Assembly (NCBI GenBank): GCA_903899985.1
Contig: CAIULL010000113.1
Coordinates: 119,229-183,228 of the forward strand
Direction: 5' to 3'
Length of the DNA: 64,000 nt
DNA from: an uncultured Schlesneria sp.
GTDB taxonomy: Bacteria > Planctomycetota > Planctomycetia > Planctomycetales > Planctomycetaceae
Shown here: piece after piece, positions 4,230-46,678 of the stretch
Layout: every line of letters starts with the position of its first letter
Position numbering within the stretch: the first letter of the stretch is position 1
The notes under the pieces: model-generated
Seen by the model: only the letters and a program-made list of their open reading frames with translations
The model's database searches: none
What the model was told of the DNA's origin: nothing
Translations under genes and position numbers: made by a program

Positions 4230-7200
4230 ATGAAGCTCAACGTGTTGTCGGAGATTTTTAATTTGTCGGACTTGATTCAGATTCGATTTCGCATGGCTTC
4301 CATCGTCGCGTTGTTGCTCGCCAGATCTATCACGCTTTTGGCCGGGCCCCCTGTTGCACCGACCGACCCATTAACCCCCGCTGAAGAACAGAAGCAATTC
4401 AAGCTTCCGCCGGGATTCGAGATTCAACTCGTCGCAGCCGAACCTGATATTCAAAAGCCGATGAACCTGGCTTTTGATGCGCGCGGGCGATTGTGGGTGA
4501 CACATTCGATCGAGTATCCCTTTGCCGCAACGGACCCCGAAACGACACGTGACGGTCTGACGATTCTTGACGGTATTGGGACAGATGGTAAAGCAACGAA
4601 AGTGACAAAGTTCGCCGAAAAGCTGAACATCCCGATCGGTGTCTTGCCAATGCCGAACGGTCGCGAGGCGATCGTCTGGTCGATCCCGAATATCTGGAAG
4701 CTTACTGATACTGACGGCGACGGCACTGCTGATCACCGCGAAGTGCTGTATGGCCCGTTCGACTTTGCCGACACACACGGAAATCAAAACGCCTTCCGCC
4801 TGGGGCTGGATGGCTGGGTCTATGCCTGCCACGGTTTTCGCAATGCGTCAAAGATCAAGCTCAAGGGAGAAGGCCCGGTCGTTCTCGAAATGCAGTCGGG
4901 AAATACTTATCGGTTTCGACCAGATGGCTCGGCGATCGAACAGATCTCGTGGGGACAGGTGAACCCGTTCGGAATGTGCTTCGATGCACGTGGCGACTTT
5001 TTCAATGCCGATTGCCATTCCAAGCCAATCACAATGTTATTGCGAGGTGGCTATTACGACAGCTTCGGTAAGCCTCACGACGGATTGGGCTTTGCGCCGA
5101 TTGCCACTTCGAACGACCACGGCTCAACAGGGATTGCAGGGATCGTTGCCTATACATCAAGCCACTTTCCTTCGGAATACAATGGTTCGATGTTTGTGGG
5201 AAACGTGGTCACCAACATCGTTCATCGCGATCAGCCACAATGGAGGGGCTCGTCTCCGTGGATTGAAAAGCCCCAGGACTTCCTGACCTGCGATGATTGG
5301 TGGTTTCATCCGGTTGACTTGCAACTGGGACCGGATGGGGCGCTGTATATCTGCGACTTCTACAATTCCATTATCGGTCATTATGAAGTCGACCTGCTGC
5401 ATCCACGACGCGATCGACACCGAGGTCGCATTTGGCGCGTCGTTTACAGAGGGAACAACGGCGTCCAGCCGCCCGTCGTACCAAACATTGCTCAAAAACC
5501 GATTGATGGCTTGTTTGAAAGCCTGGGCGATAAAAATCTGACGGTTCGACAATTTGCTGCCAATGAGCTCGAACGTCGATTCGGAGCTGCGGGAATCAAC
5601 CAGGCACGATCCCGACTGACGTTACCAGAACCATCTGACGCGGAAGAAAGCGCCAGGCAAGCTGACGAGCGGGTTCAGACGACGTGGCTGCTCTGGCGGA
5701 ACGGGCAACTGGACGAGCCGTTGATCGACCGCCTGTCGAAGGACAAGTCGGCAGTTGTCAGAATCCATCTCGTCAAGGTGCTTGCCGAAACCGCGATCTG
5801 GAACGAAAAGATGGGAGACCTTGTTCGAACCGCGATTCAGGACTCTGACCCCTTCGTTCGACGTGCTGCGGCCGAAGCACTCGGTCGACACCCCGACTCC
5901 GCGAACCTGCGACCGCTTGTACAACTCTGGAAGTCCACTGATTCTCAAGACGTCCAACTCATTCAGGCGTCCCGAATCGCTCTGAGAAATCAACTGCGAC
6001 CCACGAACGCCGTCTCGAAAATCACGGATGTTCGGTTGACGCACGATGAATTGGCCAGTGTCGCGGAAATTGCGTTGGCCGTTCCCAGCGAATCCGCCGC
6101 CTGGTTCACGTTTGACTATCTTCGACAGCATGATGTCCCTCAACCGATTATTGAAAAGAGTCTGTCGCACGTCGCCAAGCACGTCAGCGCACAGCGACTT
6201 GACGAGGTCGCAGAATACATTCAGCAAAAATTCGCAGATGACATTCCAAGTCAGGCATCATTGTTCCAAGCGATTTTTGCAGGGTTGTCCCAACGAGGAA
6301 GCCGGTTGTCCGCCGAAACGGCCCTTGGGAAATGGGCCACAAAATTGACGGTTACGCTGCTTGATCCTCGGCAAGCACGATCGGCGCCTTGGGAAAATAT
6401 CCCCCTCGTCAGCGCTGCGACCGCCAGTCCCTGGGGTGTGAGGCATCGCAATTCAACCGATGGAAATCCAGACGCATGGTTTTTCGACAGTATTGTGAAT
6501 GGGGAACAACTGACCGGAGTTCTTCGCTCTGCACCATTTCCTGTTCCAGAAAAATTGAAGTTCTGGATGTGTGGGCATAATGGTCTGCCCGGTACAGACG
6601 CTCCACCAGCCAATCACGTCCGTCTGAAGCTGGTTGATTCCGGCGAAGTCATTGCCAAGGAAATCCCCCCCAGAAACGACGTCGCGAAAGAGTATTCCTG
6701 GGACTTAAAGTCGTGGGAAGGCCGGCAAGCTGTTTTTGAAGCGGTCGATGCCGACACATCCACCGCTTATGCCTGGCTGGCGATCGGAAGGTTCGAGCCG
6801 GCCATTGTCGCGGCACCGGTCCCGGAATTCGCTTTTACGGATGCAACGCTCGCAACGGCTGTGAAAGTAGCGGATCAATTGCACATTGAGTCTTTGGCGA
6901 TTCCCGTGATTGATCTCATTTCAAATTCACAGGCAGAAATTCCGGTAAGAATGGCGGCAGCGCAATCGGGATTGAACCTGTCCCGTAACATCGCGATCAC
7001 GACATTGTCCTCGATCGTACAAAGCCCCAGTGAACCAGCGACGTTGCGAACGCATGCTGCACAATTATTGGGTTCAGTCAATTCAACGACATCTCGTGAT
7101 GCACTTGCGGGGGCATTACGTAACGCCCCCGCGCCACTACAGCAGCCGATCGCTCTGGCGATGGCCGGAACGCAGGAGGGTGGAGAGCTGTTATTCTCGT

Positions 7201-13711: not shown

Positions 13712-13977
13712 GTCTTTGCCACAAACGATTTGCGGCAATCGGCATTAAAATGAATAACTGGCAGGCCCTTGACGTACGAATCATTAAAAAAGAATGTCGA
13801 CGATATTGACGTCGTGGAAAACGATCTAAAAAACAGAAGACAGTTCCACTGCAAGAAACTCCGTCGGTATCCCGGAAATATTTGTAATTCGTCTCACGAT
13901 CGAATTCTCCGGCGATCAGCATCGTCAACGTGGCCGAAACGGTTCTCGCTGGACCAACTCAAATAAGCTGATATTTG

Positions 13978-13998
13978 TGGGATTCTCAATCCCATTTT
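13978..13998 (+). terminator. possible rho-independent terminator
   Basis: TGGGATT-CTC-AATCCCA perfect 7-bp stem followed by TTTT; downstream of the 13229-13711 gene. Confidence 0.4.
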
Positions 13999-14404
13999 CA
14001 CGAGCGCCTTCCAAACGTTAAGAAAGCGTTTCTATTTTTCTGTTGACTGGCGATAAGATATCTTGTAAAAACATGTCGTTACTTGTGTTGTAATGAAGGC
14101 GATGAATTCCTGGGTTGACAGGTAGGGCTCGCCGGGAAGCAAGAACGGGGGAGGGGCGTTGATAGTCAACGCACGATCCGGACTTGTGGCGTACCGTAAC
14201 GACTTTGAACTTTGACATTTTGGAAAACAAATTGAATCCGGTTCGCCCAGCGTCGACTTGAGACGCGGGGCGAACCGTGGCTGTTCGTTGTTTGACAGTC
14301 ACTAACGACTGCATTTTTCGTGCTTTCGTGGCCGTCGTCGTGAATTCGCTTTCCGCGAATTGCAAGATGAAGACTTATCACGAAAACTGGAAAGTTCGAA
14401 AACA

Positions 14405-14454
14405 CGAAGTCAATCGAAGTCAATCGAACTCAGGTGAACTCAGGTGAACTCGGG
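14405..14454 (+). repeat. 10-bp tandem array, five units (A1)
   Basis: cgaagtcaat cgaagtcaat cgaactcagg tgaactcagg tgaactcggg. Confidence 0.9.
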
Positions 14455-14697
14455 CACAACGGAAAAATTGACAAAAGCCTATAAATTACGAGGAATGGTC
14501 GAAGTCGCGCGAACTTTGACATCAAATTCTGTGACGGCTTGATGACAGCGAACATCAGAGAGAATTTTTGAACAGAAGAACACGAAGTTAGCGAAGTGAA
14601 GAAATTGACAACGAGATTCTTCGTCCTTCCGTGAGCCTCATTGATTTCGCGGTTAGAGAAATGAAAATGATAATTGATTACGAAACCGGTAATCGAT

Positions 14698-14757
14698 CGA
14701 GGTCAATCGAACTCGGGTGAACTCAGGTGAACTCGGGTGAACTCGGGTGAACTCGGG
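14698..14757 (+). repeat. 10-bp tandem array, six units (A2)
   Basis: cgaggtcaat cgaactcggg tgaactcagg tgaactcggg tgaactcggg tgaactcggg. Confidence 0.9.
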
Positions 14758-15123
14758 CACAACGGAAAAATTGACAAAAGCCTATAAATTACGAGGAATG
14801 GTCGAAGTCGCGCGAAGTCGGGTGAACTTTGACATCAGATGTGATTTTTTTTGATAGGACGAACGGGACTTATGTGGCCTGTGAGTGAGTGGTGCTCAAC
14901 AGGCTTTTTGGCTGGCAACGGTTCGGCTTGTCGGGGAACTTGTTTCGCCCGCCTCATGCGGGAGTTCGCTTTGATCGTGTCTGACGTTCACTCGTCGAAA
15001 AGACTATACGCGTCCCGTCGAACGAATCAGAAACGACAAAGTTGGCCAAGTTGGTCAACTTCAAACTGGCCTGAAAGCCTACAAAACATGGAACTTGGCC
15101 AATCGCATCGATCTTGTCCAACG

Positions 15124-15882
15124 TCATTCGACGGGCATGGGAACGGGCGCTGTCGGTTCGTTTGCCGGAGTTGCGGACGCGTCAGGCTGTGGGACCGGGG
15201 CGGGTGTTTCTGGTGACTGCTGAGTCATAAACAATCCGATGCCCGCATCGGACTGCTTGAACTTGTAGCGACCGCTCGCCAGTGTGTATTTGGTGTTCTG
15301 GCCGTTACCGACGTTGAAATTGACGATCCAGATGCGGTCATTGGTGAATTTCTGCATCGATCCTGGTTTCATCGTGTAGGAAACGCCATTTAACGAGTAC
15401 TGGACATCGACCGTATTCGTCGGAGGGCTGAAAATGACGATTTCGCCATGGTCGTAAGTGGCTTGAGGGGGTGAGGCCGTCTCAGCGGGAGTTGTGGCGA
15501 CTGGCGAACTGCCGGGGTAGCTCCTGCCTGGTATCGTCCCGTCTATCGTGCGCGAAGACGCGTTCGGCTGACGATTTAAGAATGGGTATGGCTGTCGAAT
15601 AGTCGTCGACGCTGACGGAGAGTAATAAATCCCGCCGCTAATCCCTCGAGGGCCTGGGCTATATTCGTTGGCGTTGCTGTAGCCATACGAACGCCTGGTT
15701 CCATATGCGTTCGCGGGATATCCGGGCTCATATCCCCGGTAACCGCTGTACCCGCCATACAGCCCCCCGTAACCGGGTTCCCCTGGCCAGGTATAGTATT
15801 GTGCAACGGCGACACCGCTGTTCGTGAATGTCGCGTAACACGCGACCAACAAAACCCATTTTGTCACCGAGCGTTGAAACAT
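15124..15882 (-). CDS. secreted Gly/Tyr/Pro-rich hypothetical protein
   Basis: From ATG at 15882: MFQRSVTKWVLLVACYATFTNSGVAVAQYYTWPGEPGYGGLYGGYSGYRGYEPGYP... Signal peptide plus low-complexity region. Confidence 0.7.
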   Translation of the reverse strand: MFQRSVTKWVLLVACYATFTNSGVAVAQYYTWPGEPGYGGLYGGYSGYRGYEPGYPANAYGTRRSYGYSNANEYSPGPRGISGGIYYSPSASTTIRQPYPFLNRQPNASSRTIDGTIPGRSYPGSSPVATTPAETASPPQATYDHGEIVIFSPPTNTVDVQYSLNGVSYTMKPGSMQKFTNDRIWIVNFNVGNGQNTKYTLASGRYKFKQSDAGIGLFMTQQSPETPAPVPQPDASATPANEPTAPVPMPVE

Positions 15883-44509: not shown

Positions 44510-44533
44510 ATGTCACTCGCTCGAATCCAAGTT

Positions 44534-44558
44534 GCGTTGCGGGCAACGCCCGCAACGC
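44534..44558. repeat. perfect hairpin, 11-bp stem
   Basis: GCGTTGCGGGC-AAC-GCCCGCAACGC; no T-tract follows. Confidence 0.7.
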
Positions 44559-44639
44559 ACTGCGTTTGAAAAGAATCAGCAAAGGTGCAACCAATCACGT
44601 GTTTTCTTATGACGGCAGGTGGTTGTTCCAATCTTTCTG

Positions 44640-45445
44640 TTATTCATTTTCGGATCTGTACTGGCCGTCTTGCCTAGGCCGTCGTTTCTGATTCATCCGC
44701 TGGGCGGCATTAATCCTTTCGGCGAGCGAACCCCAGGTACCACCAATGGGAACCCCCGCATGATGCGGGCGAAGCAAGTTCACCGACAAGCCGAATCGTT
44801 GCCCGCCAAAAAAGTCTGTTGAGTACCTCGCTCTCATCTCCTGCAGATGTCCAATACGTCGCTTGAGTCCCATGCGTCCCATCAAAAACAAAATCTTGTG
44901 TCAAAGTTCGATCAAGTTCGAACGACTTCGACCATTTCCCGTATTTCATAGGCTTTTGACCGTTTTTTCATCGCGCCCGAGTTCGATCAAGTTCGCCCGA
45001 GTTCGATCAAGTTCGATCAAGTTCGATCAAGTTCGATCAAGTTCGATCAAGTTCGACACACTTCGTTCATGTTCGATCGACTTCGTGTTTTCGGAATTGG
45101 TCTTCATCTTCAATTCGCGGAATGCGAATTCCTGATGACGGCCATGCAAATACGAAAGTACCAAAAACGGTAGCTCTGAATCGCTGCCAAAGAACGAACG
45201 GCCACGGTTCGTTCAAGCGTTTCAAGTCGACACTGAAGCGAACCGGGTTCAATTTGGTTTCTGAAATGTCAAAGATCAAAGTCGTTGCATTACGTCAACA
45301 AGACCGGAATGCGCATCGAAAATCAGCGCCCCTTCACCGTTCCCTGGCGAACCCTGCCTGTCATCACAGGGAATCATTGCGCCGCCTACAAACAAATTAC
45401 GACAAAAACCTACAAATTATGATAATGAAAGTCAATAGAAATTGA
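44640..45445 (-). repeat. composite intergenic repeat, locus B (inverted homologue of 14020-15065)
   Basis: The reverse complement aligns block by block with locus A in the same order. Confidence 0.8.
44979..45084 (-). repeat. 10-bp tandem array, about ten units
   Basis: + strand reads agttcgatca agttcgcccg (agttcgatca)x5 agttcgacac acttcgttca tgttcgatcg; two to three more units at 44905-44934 on the other side of the core. Confidence 0.92.
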
Positions 45446-45751
45446 AAGATTATTTCTGGACGTTTGGAAGGGGCTCGCGAAACAGGGTTTGCAAATCTCG
45501 AAATCCGCGTCCTCGCAGTTGAGTTTGTTTCCCCGAGAGTGCGGTTGGATCGTCAGGCCGCGGAGCTCAAATGACTTTGGCGTCTCTTCGTGTGAGCCGC
45601 TGTGCTGATGAATTTGCGTTTGCGTCCGATCGACTTCGGGCCAGATCGCATCGGAATCTGCTTGTGATTTTTTGAGAATCCCGTTCACGAATCCGTCACG
45701 CGCGCAACGTCAAATTATGCGAGGCGGGCTGGAATGAGTCGATAATCCGAG

Positions 45752-46678
45752 TCAGTGCAGCTCAGGGCGAAGATAGATAAAGCTTTTACCCAACCGACCA
45801 CCGTAGTTACCCGCCGAAATCTTGATCAGGCCCGGTGTGTCGACTGTGGCGGCGATGACCGCCTGTGTTCCAGCGGAGACTGTCGCCAGATCCCGTCCGT
45901 TAATGATGATTTCCATAATCGAATGGATTCCATCGGGTACCTGAGACTGTTCGCCCAGCTTTTCACGCAACGTCGGGCAGAATGGATGATTTGTGCTGGC
46001 GAAGAGGAACGAATAGGCGCTACCTGCCTTGGAGCCACTTGCCGCAACACCGCCAGGGAATGGGGCGATCGTACCCGGGACGTTCGCAAGTGCCGCGACA
46101 CCACGCTCAGCCGCCGCCAATGAGGCATCGACGGATTCTGCAAAAAACCACAGGTTCCCACCCATCACTCCATCGGCGAATCCAAACCGCCGATCGATGA
46201 CAAATTCCCCTCCCATGATCGGTAAGACCCACATCTTGCGGCCGTAACGCTGATCTCGAAACTGATGGCCGTCGCCGAACAGAGCGATTTTGCGGCCCAA
46301 TTTGAAGTAGGGGTCTGTCTCCAGCAGGTTAAAACACGAGGCCGTGGGACATGTCAGCACATTTTGGCTCAGCCGATGCAGCAGCACCTTTTCCAGAAGT
46401 TTCTCACGATCTTTTTTGAAACGAGGAACATGAAATTGAACGATCGCACCCGGGCGACCATCGGGGGTCGCAAACGATTCGTCCCCGCCAGGTCCCACAT
46501 ACCGGTCAACACCCGCTTCGCATTCACAAAAGATGCTGCTGGAAGCATGTCCCGTGGCTGCGTTACAGGCATGATCCAGCCAGACTCGATCCCTGGCGGT
46601 GATCAGAACTTCCGCATAGATACTGCGAAATCCCTCGGCGTAAGTATCTTCGACAAAGGCACGATGCGTAGTAGTCAC
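45752..46678 (-). CDS. fhcD: formylmethanofuran--tetrahydromethanopterin N-formyltransferase
   Basis: TYAEGFRSIYAEVLITARDRVWLDHACNAATGHASSSIFCECEAGVDRYVGPGGDESFATPDGRPGAIVQFHVPRFKK; MGGEFVIDRRFGFADGVMGGNLWFFAES (Ftr family). Confidence 0.95.
   Translation of the reverse strand: MTTTHRAFVEDTYAEGFRSIYAEVLITARDRVWLDHACNAATGHASSSIFCECEAGVDRYVGPGGDESFATPDGRPGAIVQFHVPRFKKDREKLLEKVLLHRLSQNVLTCPTASCFNLLETDPYFKLGRKIALFGDGHQFRDQRYGRKMWVLPIMGGEFVIDRRFGFADGVMGGNLWFFAESVDASLAAAERGVAALANVPGTIAPFPGGVAASGSKAGSAYSFLFASTNHPFCPTLREKLGEQSQVPDGIHSIMEIIINGRDLATVSAGTQAVIAATVDTPGLIKISAGNYGGRLGKSFIYLRPELH

Follow-up and report, generated by a model that had tools for sequence, protein, structure and literature searches.

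Two inverted intergenic elements in a Schlesneria genome belong to a previously uncatalogued non-coding family in one group of lake Planctomycetes

Two intergenic regions in the window, the 64,000-nucleotide stretch of Schlesneria DNA analysed here, had been described in a first-pass annotation as diverged, inverted copies of one large composite element, which raises the question of what kind of sequence these copies, termed A and B, represent. The claimed inverted homologue about 30 kb from A is borne out: a BLASTN comparison of 13712-15123 with the reverse complement of 44510-45751 gave two collinear blocks with 72% identity (E 3e-62 and 4e-55), and the local alignment of A and B scored 508, whereas 100 dinucleotide shuffles averaged 35 and reached 52 at most. 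All six collinear blocks that had been listed fall within these alignments in the order given. The proposed limits (14020-15065 and 44640-45445) do overlap the similar sequence; their exact ends do not hold, as the similarity begins at about 13981 in A, upstream of 14020, and spans 45497 down to about 44681 in B. Element A further carries an internal duplication (14313-14513 versus 14616-14816, 78%). Defined by the leader and modules described below, the two elements are:

13995-15103, plus strand: element A, from the leader-model match to the beta unit.
45482-44755, minus strand: element B, from the leader-model match to the A/B-type tail.

Element A lies between a 160-aa ORF that follows a HisA-like gene and the gene for a 274-aa protein without Pfam match, and element B between genes that a Pfam scan assigned to an SMP-30/gluconolactonase-domain protein and to Ftr (formylmethanofuran-tetrahydromethanopterin formyltransferase). 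The Ftr gene (45752-46678) itself adjoins a gene for 5-formyl-THF cyclo-ligase, placing C1-transfer genes beside B, and a short inverted repeat, GTTGCGGGCAACGCCCGCAAC, occurs outside B at 44541-44577, right after a 503-aa gene. No scored genes were found within A or B. An ORF of at least 120 aa at 14851-15216 overlaps the end of A and is partly antisense to the next gene; no conserved ORF of the kind that marks a protein-coding locus was found in either element.

Both elements have many relatives. In the genome of the window (G000; 8.0 Mb, 296 contigs), a 1046-bp query from A gave at least 94 DNA matches, a sequence-only model of the leader (R1) at least 57 and a model of the repeat unit (R2) at least 145, so that neither a lack of further copies nor an alignment no better than shuffles, named beforehand as the findings that would count against a dispersed element, was observed. 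In three related Schlesneria MAGs, with one genome per species, R1 gave at least 78 (G001), 86 (G004) and 68 (G005) matches and R2, for which up to 150 candidates per genome were scored, at least 153, 120 and 118, respectively. Elsewhere in the genus, R1 had one match in an eleventh congener (G013) and none listed in ten other genomes, and in an 81-genome sample of the family the leader appeared, among the matches listed, only in G000 and G004, plus one marginal match from outside the genus. The exact leader pattern was present in only three species of a collection of 85,488 genomes, which may omit records of the window's own genome; all three are MAGs named Schlesneria (CAIVEI, CAIOKO and CAILLA). 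For R2, at least 13 matches were found in G006 and three or fewer were listed in other genomes. As this congener G006 has alpha-like units and no leader match, the repeats may predate the leader. The contigs of G000 often break inside arrays (e.g., L055, L059, L064, L087), and copy and unit numbers are therefore probably underestimated.

Rfam gave no match in the window at gathering score (best permissive match E 0.21), and literature searches, with incomplete coverage of papers, returned no description of such elements. Tens of copies per genome, without an Rfam match or any protein-coding content found, thus support the original characterization as a dispersed genomic element to which no standard feature type applies: A and B represent a non-coding family, not catalogued before, in one group of lake Planctomycetes.

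The most constant part of the element is its leader, which consists of TTTCATGAGCACCTTCCAAACGTTAAGAA, 18 nt, TTGAC, a 17-nt spacer and a TATTTT-like box and is near-invariant among copies. A conservation profile of 64 leaders reads TTTCATGAGCAC-CTTCCAAACGTTAAGAA, an AT-rich 18-nt tract, TTGAC, the 17-nt spacer and TAtTTT-T-ATGTCG, with sharp boxes and spacing, and the near-invariant columns include an imperfect palindrome, TTCnnAACGTTnnGAA. In the window, the leader features are:

13995-14088, plus strand: leader of A, with regulator-like site, AT-rich tract and -35/-10 boxes (R1 79.1 bits, E 7e-23; 64-leader profile).
14009-14024, plus strand: imperfect palindrome TTCCAAACGTTAAGAA of the TTCnnAACGTTnnGAA type, with its centre about 61.5 bp ahead of the predicted start (64-leader columns; 13 orthologous pairs).
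14043-14071, plus strand: promoter-like boxes of A, TTGACT, 17 nt and TAAAAA, the family consensus being TTGAC-N-17-TATTTT (conserved boxes and spacing; no call by the promoter scanner).
45390-45482, minus strand: leader of B (R1 63.4 bits, E 5.5e-18).
45454-45469, 45430-45435 and 45407-45412, minus strand: palindrome, TTGACT and TAGGTT of the B leader (R1 match).

The leader is laid out like a sigma-70 promoter that has a palindromic site around -61.5: TTGAC(N), 17 bp and TAtTTT in 64 leaders agree with -35 and -10 hexamers spaced 16–18 bp apart. A single-sequence promoter scanner called no promoter at the leader of A or B, where the -10 box is weak, and the case for a promoter hence rests on conservation across copies. 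If the start is assumed to lie 7 bp after the -10 box, the palindrome centre falls near -61.5, which we take to be the position of a class I activator; its central AACGTT presumably resembles LacI/GalR operators.

Downstream of the leader, and on its strand, modules follow in a nearly fixed order of H, alpha, beta and then gamma. Module H comprises TTTGACATCTTGGAA and a hairpin; alpha units are built of GAACT decamers, i.e., 10-bp repeats, around a core, AAAAGCCTATGAATTACGAGGAATGGTCGAAGTCG; beta units have AAGTTGGCC arms around AAAAGCCTATGAAATA and form a long hairpin, often with a T run at its end; and gamma consists of TTGNNCAA repeats of the CCATAGTTGCNCAA type. X is a short module common to many other loci. 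The 10-mer array plus core that had been listed as the fifth block corresponds to the alpha unit, of which A has two copies and B one:

14200-14282, plus strand: module H of A, TTTGACATTTTGGAA box and hairpin at 14239-14277 with partly compensated arms (-29.8 kcal/mol).
14405-14545, plus strand: alpha unit 1 of A, GAACTnnnnn decamers and then core GACAAAAGCCTATAAATTACGAGGAATGGTCGAAGTCGCGCGAACTTTGACA (R2 at 14462-14520, 59.2 bits; unit alignment).
14545-14640, plus strand: module X of A, GAACAGAAG...ACGAAG, between the alpha units.
14695-14840, plus strand: alpha unit 2 of A, decamers and core (R2 at 14765-14840, 72.8 bits).
14890-14985, plus strand: A/B-type tail of A with hairpin CCCGCCTCATGCGGG at 14948-14962 (alignment with B; weaker match in L056; terminator-like scan match).
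15038-15103, plus strand: beta unit of A, AAGTTGGCC...AAAGCCTACAAAACA..GGAACTTGGCC (module-grammar scan).
45205-45285, minus strand: module H of B, hairpin at 45205-45245 (alignment with A; -15.6 kcal/mol).
44893-45085, minus strand: alpha unit of B, TCGAACTTGA decamer array with core at 44893-44968 (R2 76.9 bits).
44755-44830, minus strand: A/B-type tail of B (alignment with A; module scan).

Counted over 93 leaders with double calls removed, H precedes alpha 54:0, beta 33:0 and gamma 72:0, alpha precedes gamma 78:0 and beta 51:11, and beta precedes gamma 94:3. No H or alpha on the opposite strand was found downstream of a leader, and only some X modules are reversed. Thirteen of the 93 leader loci have no H, alpha, beta or gamma in the sequence examined; several of these reach the end of the contig or locus and others do not. 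Gamma arrays of the TTGGCCAA/TTGCCCAA type, about 1 kb long in places, follow some leaders (L210, L206, L204, L209).

At the RNA level, individual modules would form hairpins. Across 23 copies, the H hairpins have a mean z of -2.9, with the hairpin formed in most copies. Consensus folding of the H alignment gave no structure, and H was therefore assessed by direct pairing of its arms, in which 41 of 46 variable cells are paired, a modest signal of compensatory change (permutation mean 35, maximum 41). Folds of beta units are likewise far more stable than those of shuffled sequences (mean z -2.8), with ACTTTTT, read in leader direction, at the end of 33 of the 77 units. For alpha units no consensus fold was found; the fold of the whole element is not diagnostic in A (z -3.6 on both strands) and no better than shuffles in B (z -0.3), and a consensus fold with covariation over the element was accordingly not obtained. 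For the structured non-coding RNA initially suggested, a single conserved fold is thus not supported; the H and beta modules do fold into hairpins.

The promoter-like leader and the nearly fixed module order, both of which go beyond the earlier observations, make a transcription unit more likely, in our view, than a passive repeat, as far as can be judged from sequence. We consider it about evenly balanced whether A and B belong to a lineage-specific family of non-coding units that are transcribed under a single common regulator. In this reading, a sigma-70-type polymerase would start about 7 bp past the TATTTT-like box, and all copies would be jointly controlled by a dimeric regulator that occupies TTCnnAACGTTnnGAA near -61.5; the RNA would include hairpin H, continue into the GAACT-decamer units and end at beta hairpins, many with a T run. 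More speculatively, the decamer units could offer a nucleic-acid-binding protein many binding sites, as a platform or decoy, through which tens of loci might form one co-regulated dose, while the arrays would change by tandem duplication and exchange between loci and the leaders would be kept. In its fullest form, which we advance tentatively and at less than even chances, the proposal is that each genome has 57-86 long, co-regulated repeat-array ncRNA genes with one promoter/operator type and ordered H-alpha-beta-gamma modules, forming a bacterial RNA gene superfamily without described counterpart and perhaps acting, from many loci, as a decoy or scaffold for a protein that binds the decamers. 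If the loci are transcribed, non-coding RNA adding up to tens of kilobases would be under one regulator in a single clade of lake bacteria; bacteria rarely have large, ordered non-coding families that share a promoter, and the leader model yields exact predicted start sites. A role of the loci as 5' UTRs was rejected, since the downstream genes have no preferred orientation (15 antiparallel and 12 parallel to the array), facing it as often as away from it.

Comparison between related species bears on how the copies arose. Many occupy orthologous sites, with flanking genes 80-90% identical. Between the members of 13 orthologous pairs, obtained by a strict pairing that replaced a noisy one on short flank matches, identity is 93% in the palindrome, 53% in the promoter spacer and 52% in the upstream flank. 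This comparison is partly biased towards the motif on one side, most partner loci having been retrieved through the exact leader motif, and pairs were accepted only with TTGAC in both members. The difference between palindrome and spacer makes the leader look selected; likeness among leaders could, however, partly be due to gene conversion rather than selection. A-type elements in G004 and G001 adjoin the orthologous downstream gene, and B is present in G004 (L114 plus L031). Element A of G000 resembles B of G004 (80.6%) more closely than it does its positional counterpart in that genome (68.5%), suggesting exchange between inverted loci 30 kb apart, and inner segments are 86-97% identical between unlinked loci, which likewise points to exchange among loci.

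The same data also accommodate the main rival to the transcription-unit reading, i.e., a non-autonomous dispersed repeat (a large composite MITE or REP-like element) with its own promoter that was spread by transposase or recombination in the ancestor of the clade and whose conservation reflects recent spread and gene conversion. At least 57-86 copies between unrelated genes, the highly similar inner segments and REP-like palindromes inside many copies would all be expected of such a repeat, as would the empty B site in G005, where 107 bp separate the two flanking genes, and the short gaps at that site in G002 and G003 (113 and 207 bp). However, neither a defined right end nor terminal inverted repeats nor a target-site duplication could be made out, the insertion junctions at B being too diverged for defining ends; many positions are common to several species, and the spread of the element must then be old; no copies were found on the plasmids or viral contigs searched; and the leader is kept far better than the rest of the element. 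Nor does the number of Y1 transposase genes track the element, with 12 in G000 and 17 and 18 in G007 and G010, which both lack it. Active mobility, one of the options first raised, is therefore not supported, the empty B site in G005 notwithstanding, and the dispersed-repeat explanation as a whole seems to us possible and somewhat doubtful. A selfish element of this kind would be an unusually large, modular and promoter-led repeat without a recognised mobiliser.

It is unlikely that the family acts as DNA, with exactly 10-bp-phased GAACT repeats flanking the core as targets of a nucleoid protein, a partition protein or one that organises the chromosome, and the leader as another protein site. 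The GAAST boxes upstream of the alpha core do keep a single 10-bp phase in 440 of 468 cases and many loci are present per chromosome, but neither T runs specific to one strand nor modules whose strand is tied to that of a promoter-like leader would be expected, and A and B point in opposite directions only 30 kb apart, which argues against a simple replichore orientation. Decay of unrelated intergenic tandem repeats accumulating in permissive gaps, which would account for the interleaving of several repeat families and the widely varying unit numbers, is very improbable, as the nearly fixed order on one strand behind a shared leader excludes random accumulation.

Among known systems, CRISPR arrays offer a likeness in their conserved promoter-bearing leader followed by same-strand repeats and in interiors that change faster than the leader. 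The elements described here differ in having 10-bp repeats, composite modules and tens of loci per genome; instead of identical repeats with unique spacers of similar size, they contain continuous variable decamers with no spacer pattern, and a Pfam scan of the direct neighbours of A and B found no cas-like genes among them. The large bacterial ncRNAs GOLLD, ROOL, OLE and HEARO are also long intergenic non-coding units of unknown role. In contrast to the large ornate RNAs GOLLD, ROOL and OLE, which have a conserved fold (PMC12286853), no shared conserved fold was found here, and the present family further differs from all four in its tens of paralogues per genome and lack of an Rfam match. Integron gene-cassette arrays share a conserved start followed by tandem palindromic modules, whereas our arrays are without ORFs and occupy many independent loci. 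REP/BIME and RAYT-associated repeats are likewise multi-copy, palindromic and intergenic; the elements here are kilobase-sized, ordered and promoter-led, and their presence is not tracked by Y1 transposase gene number. The REP-like palindrome itself, GAACAAAAGCGGGACAGGCACC...GCCAGTCCCGGTTTTGTTC (module R), occurs at varying spots within loci, such as 4745-4795 (plus strand) in L080, as well as in L071 and others.
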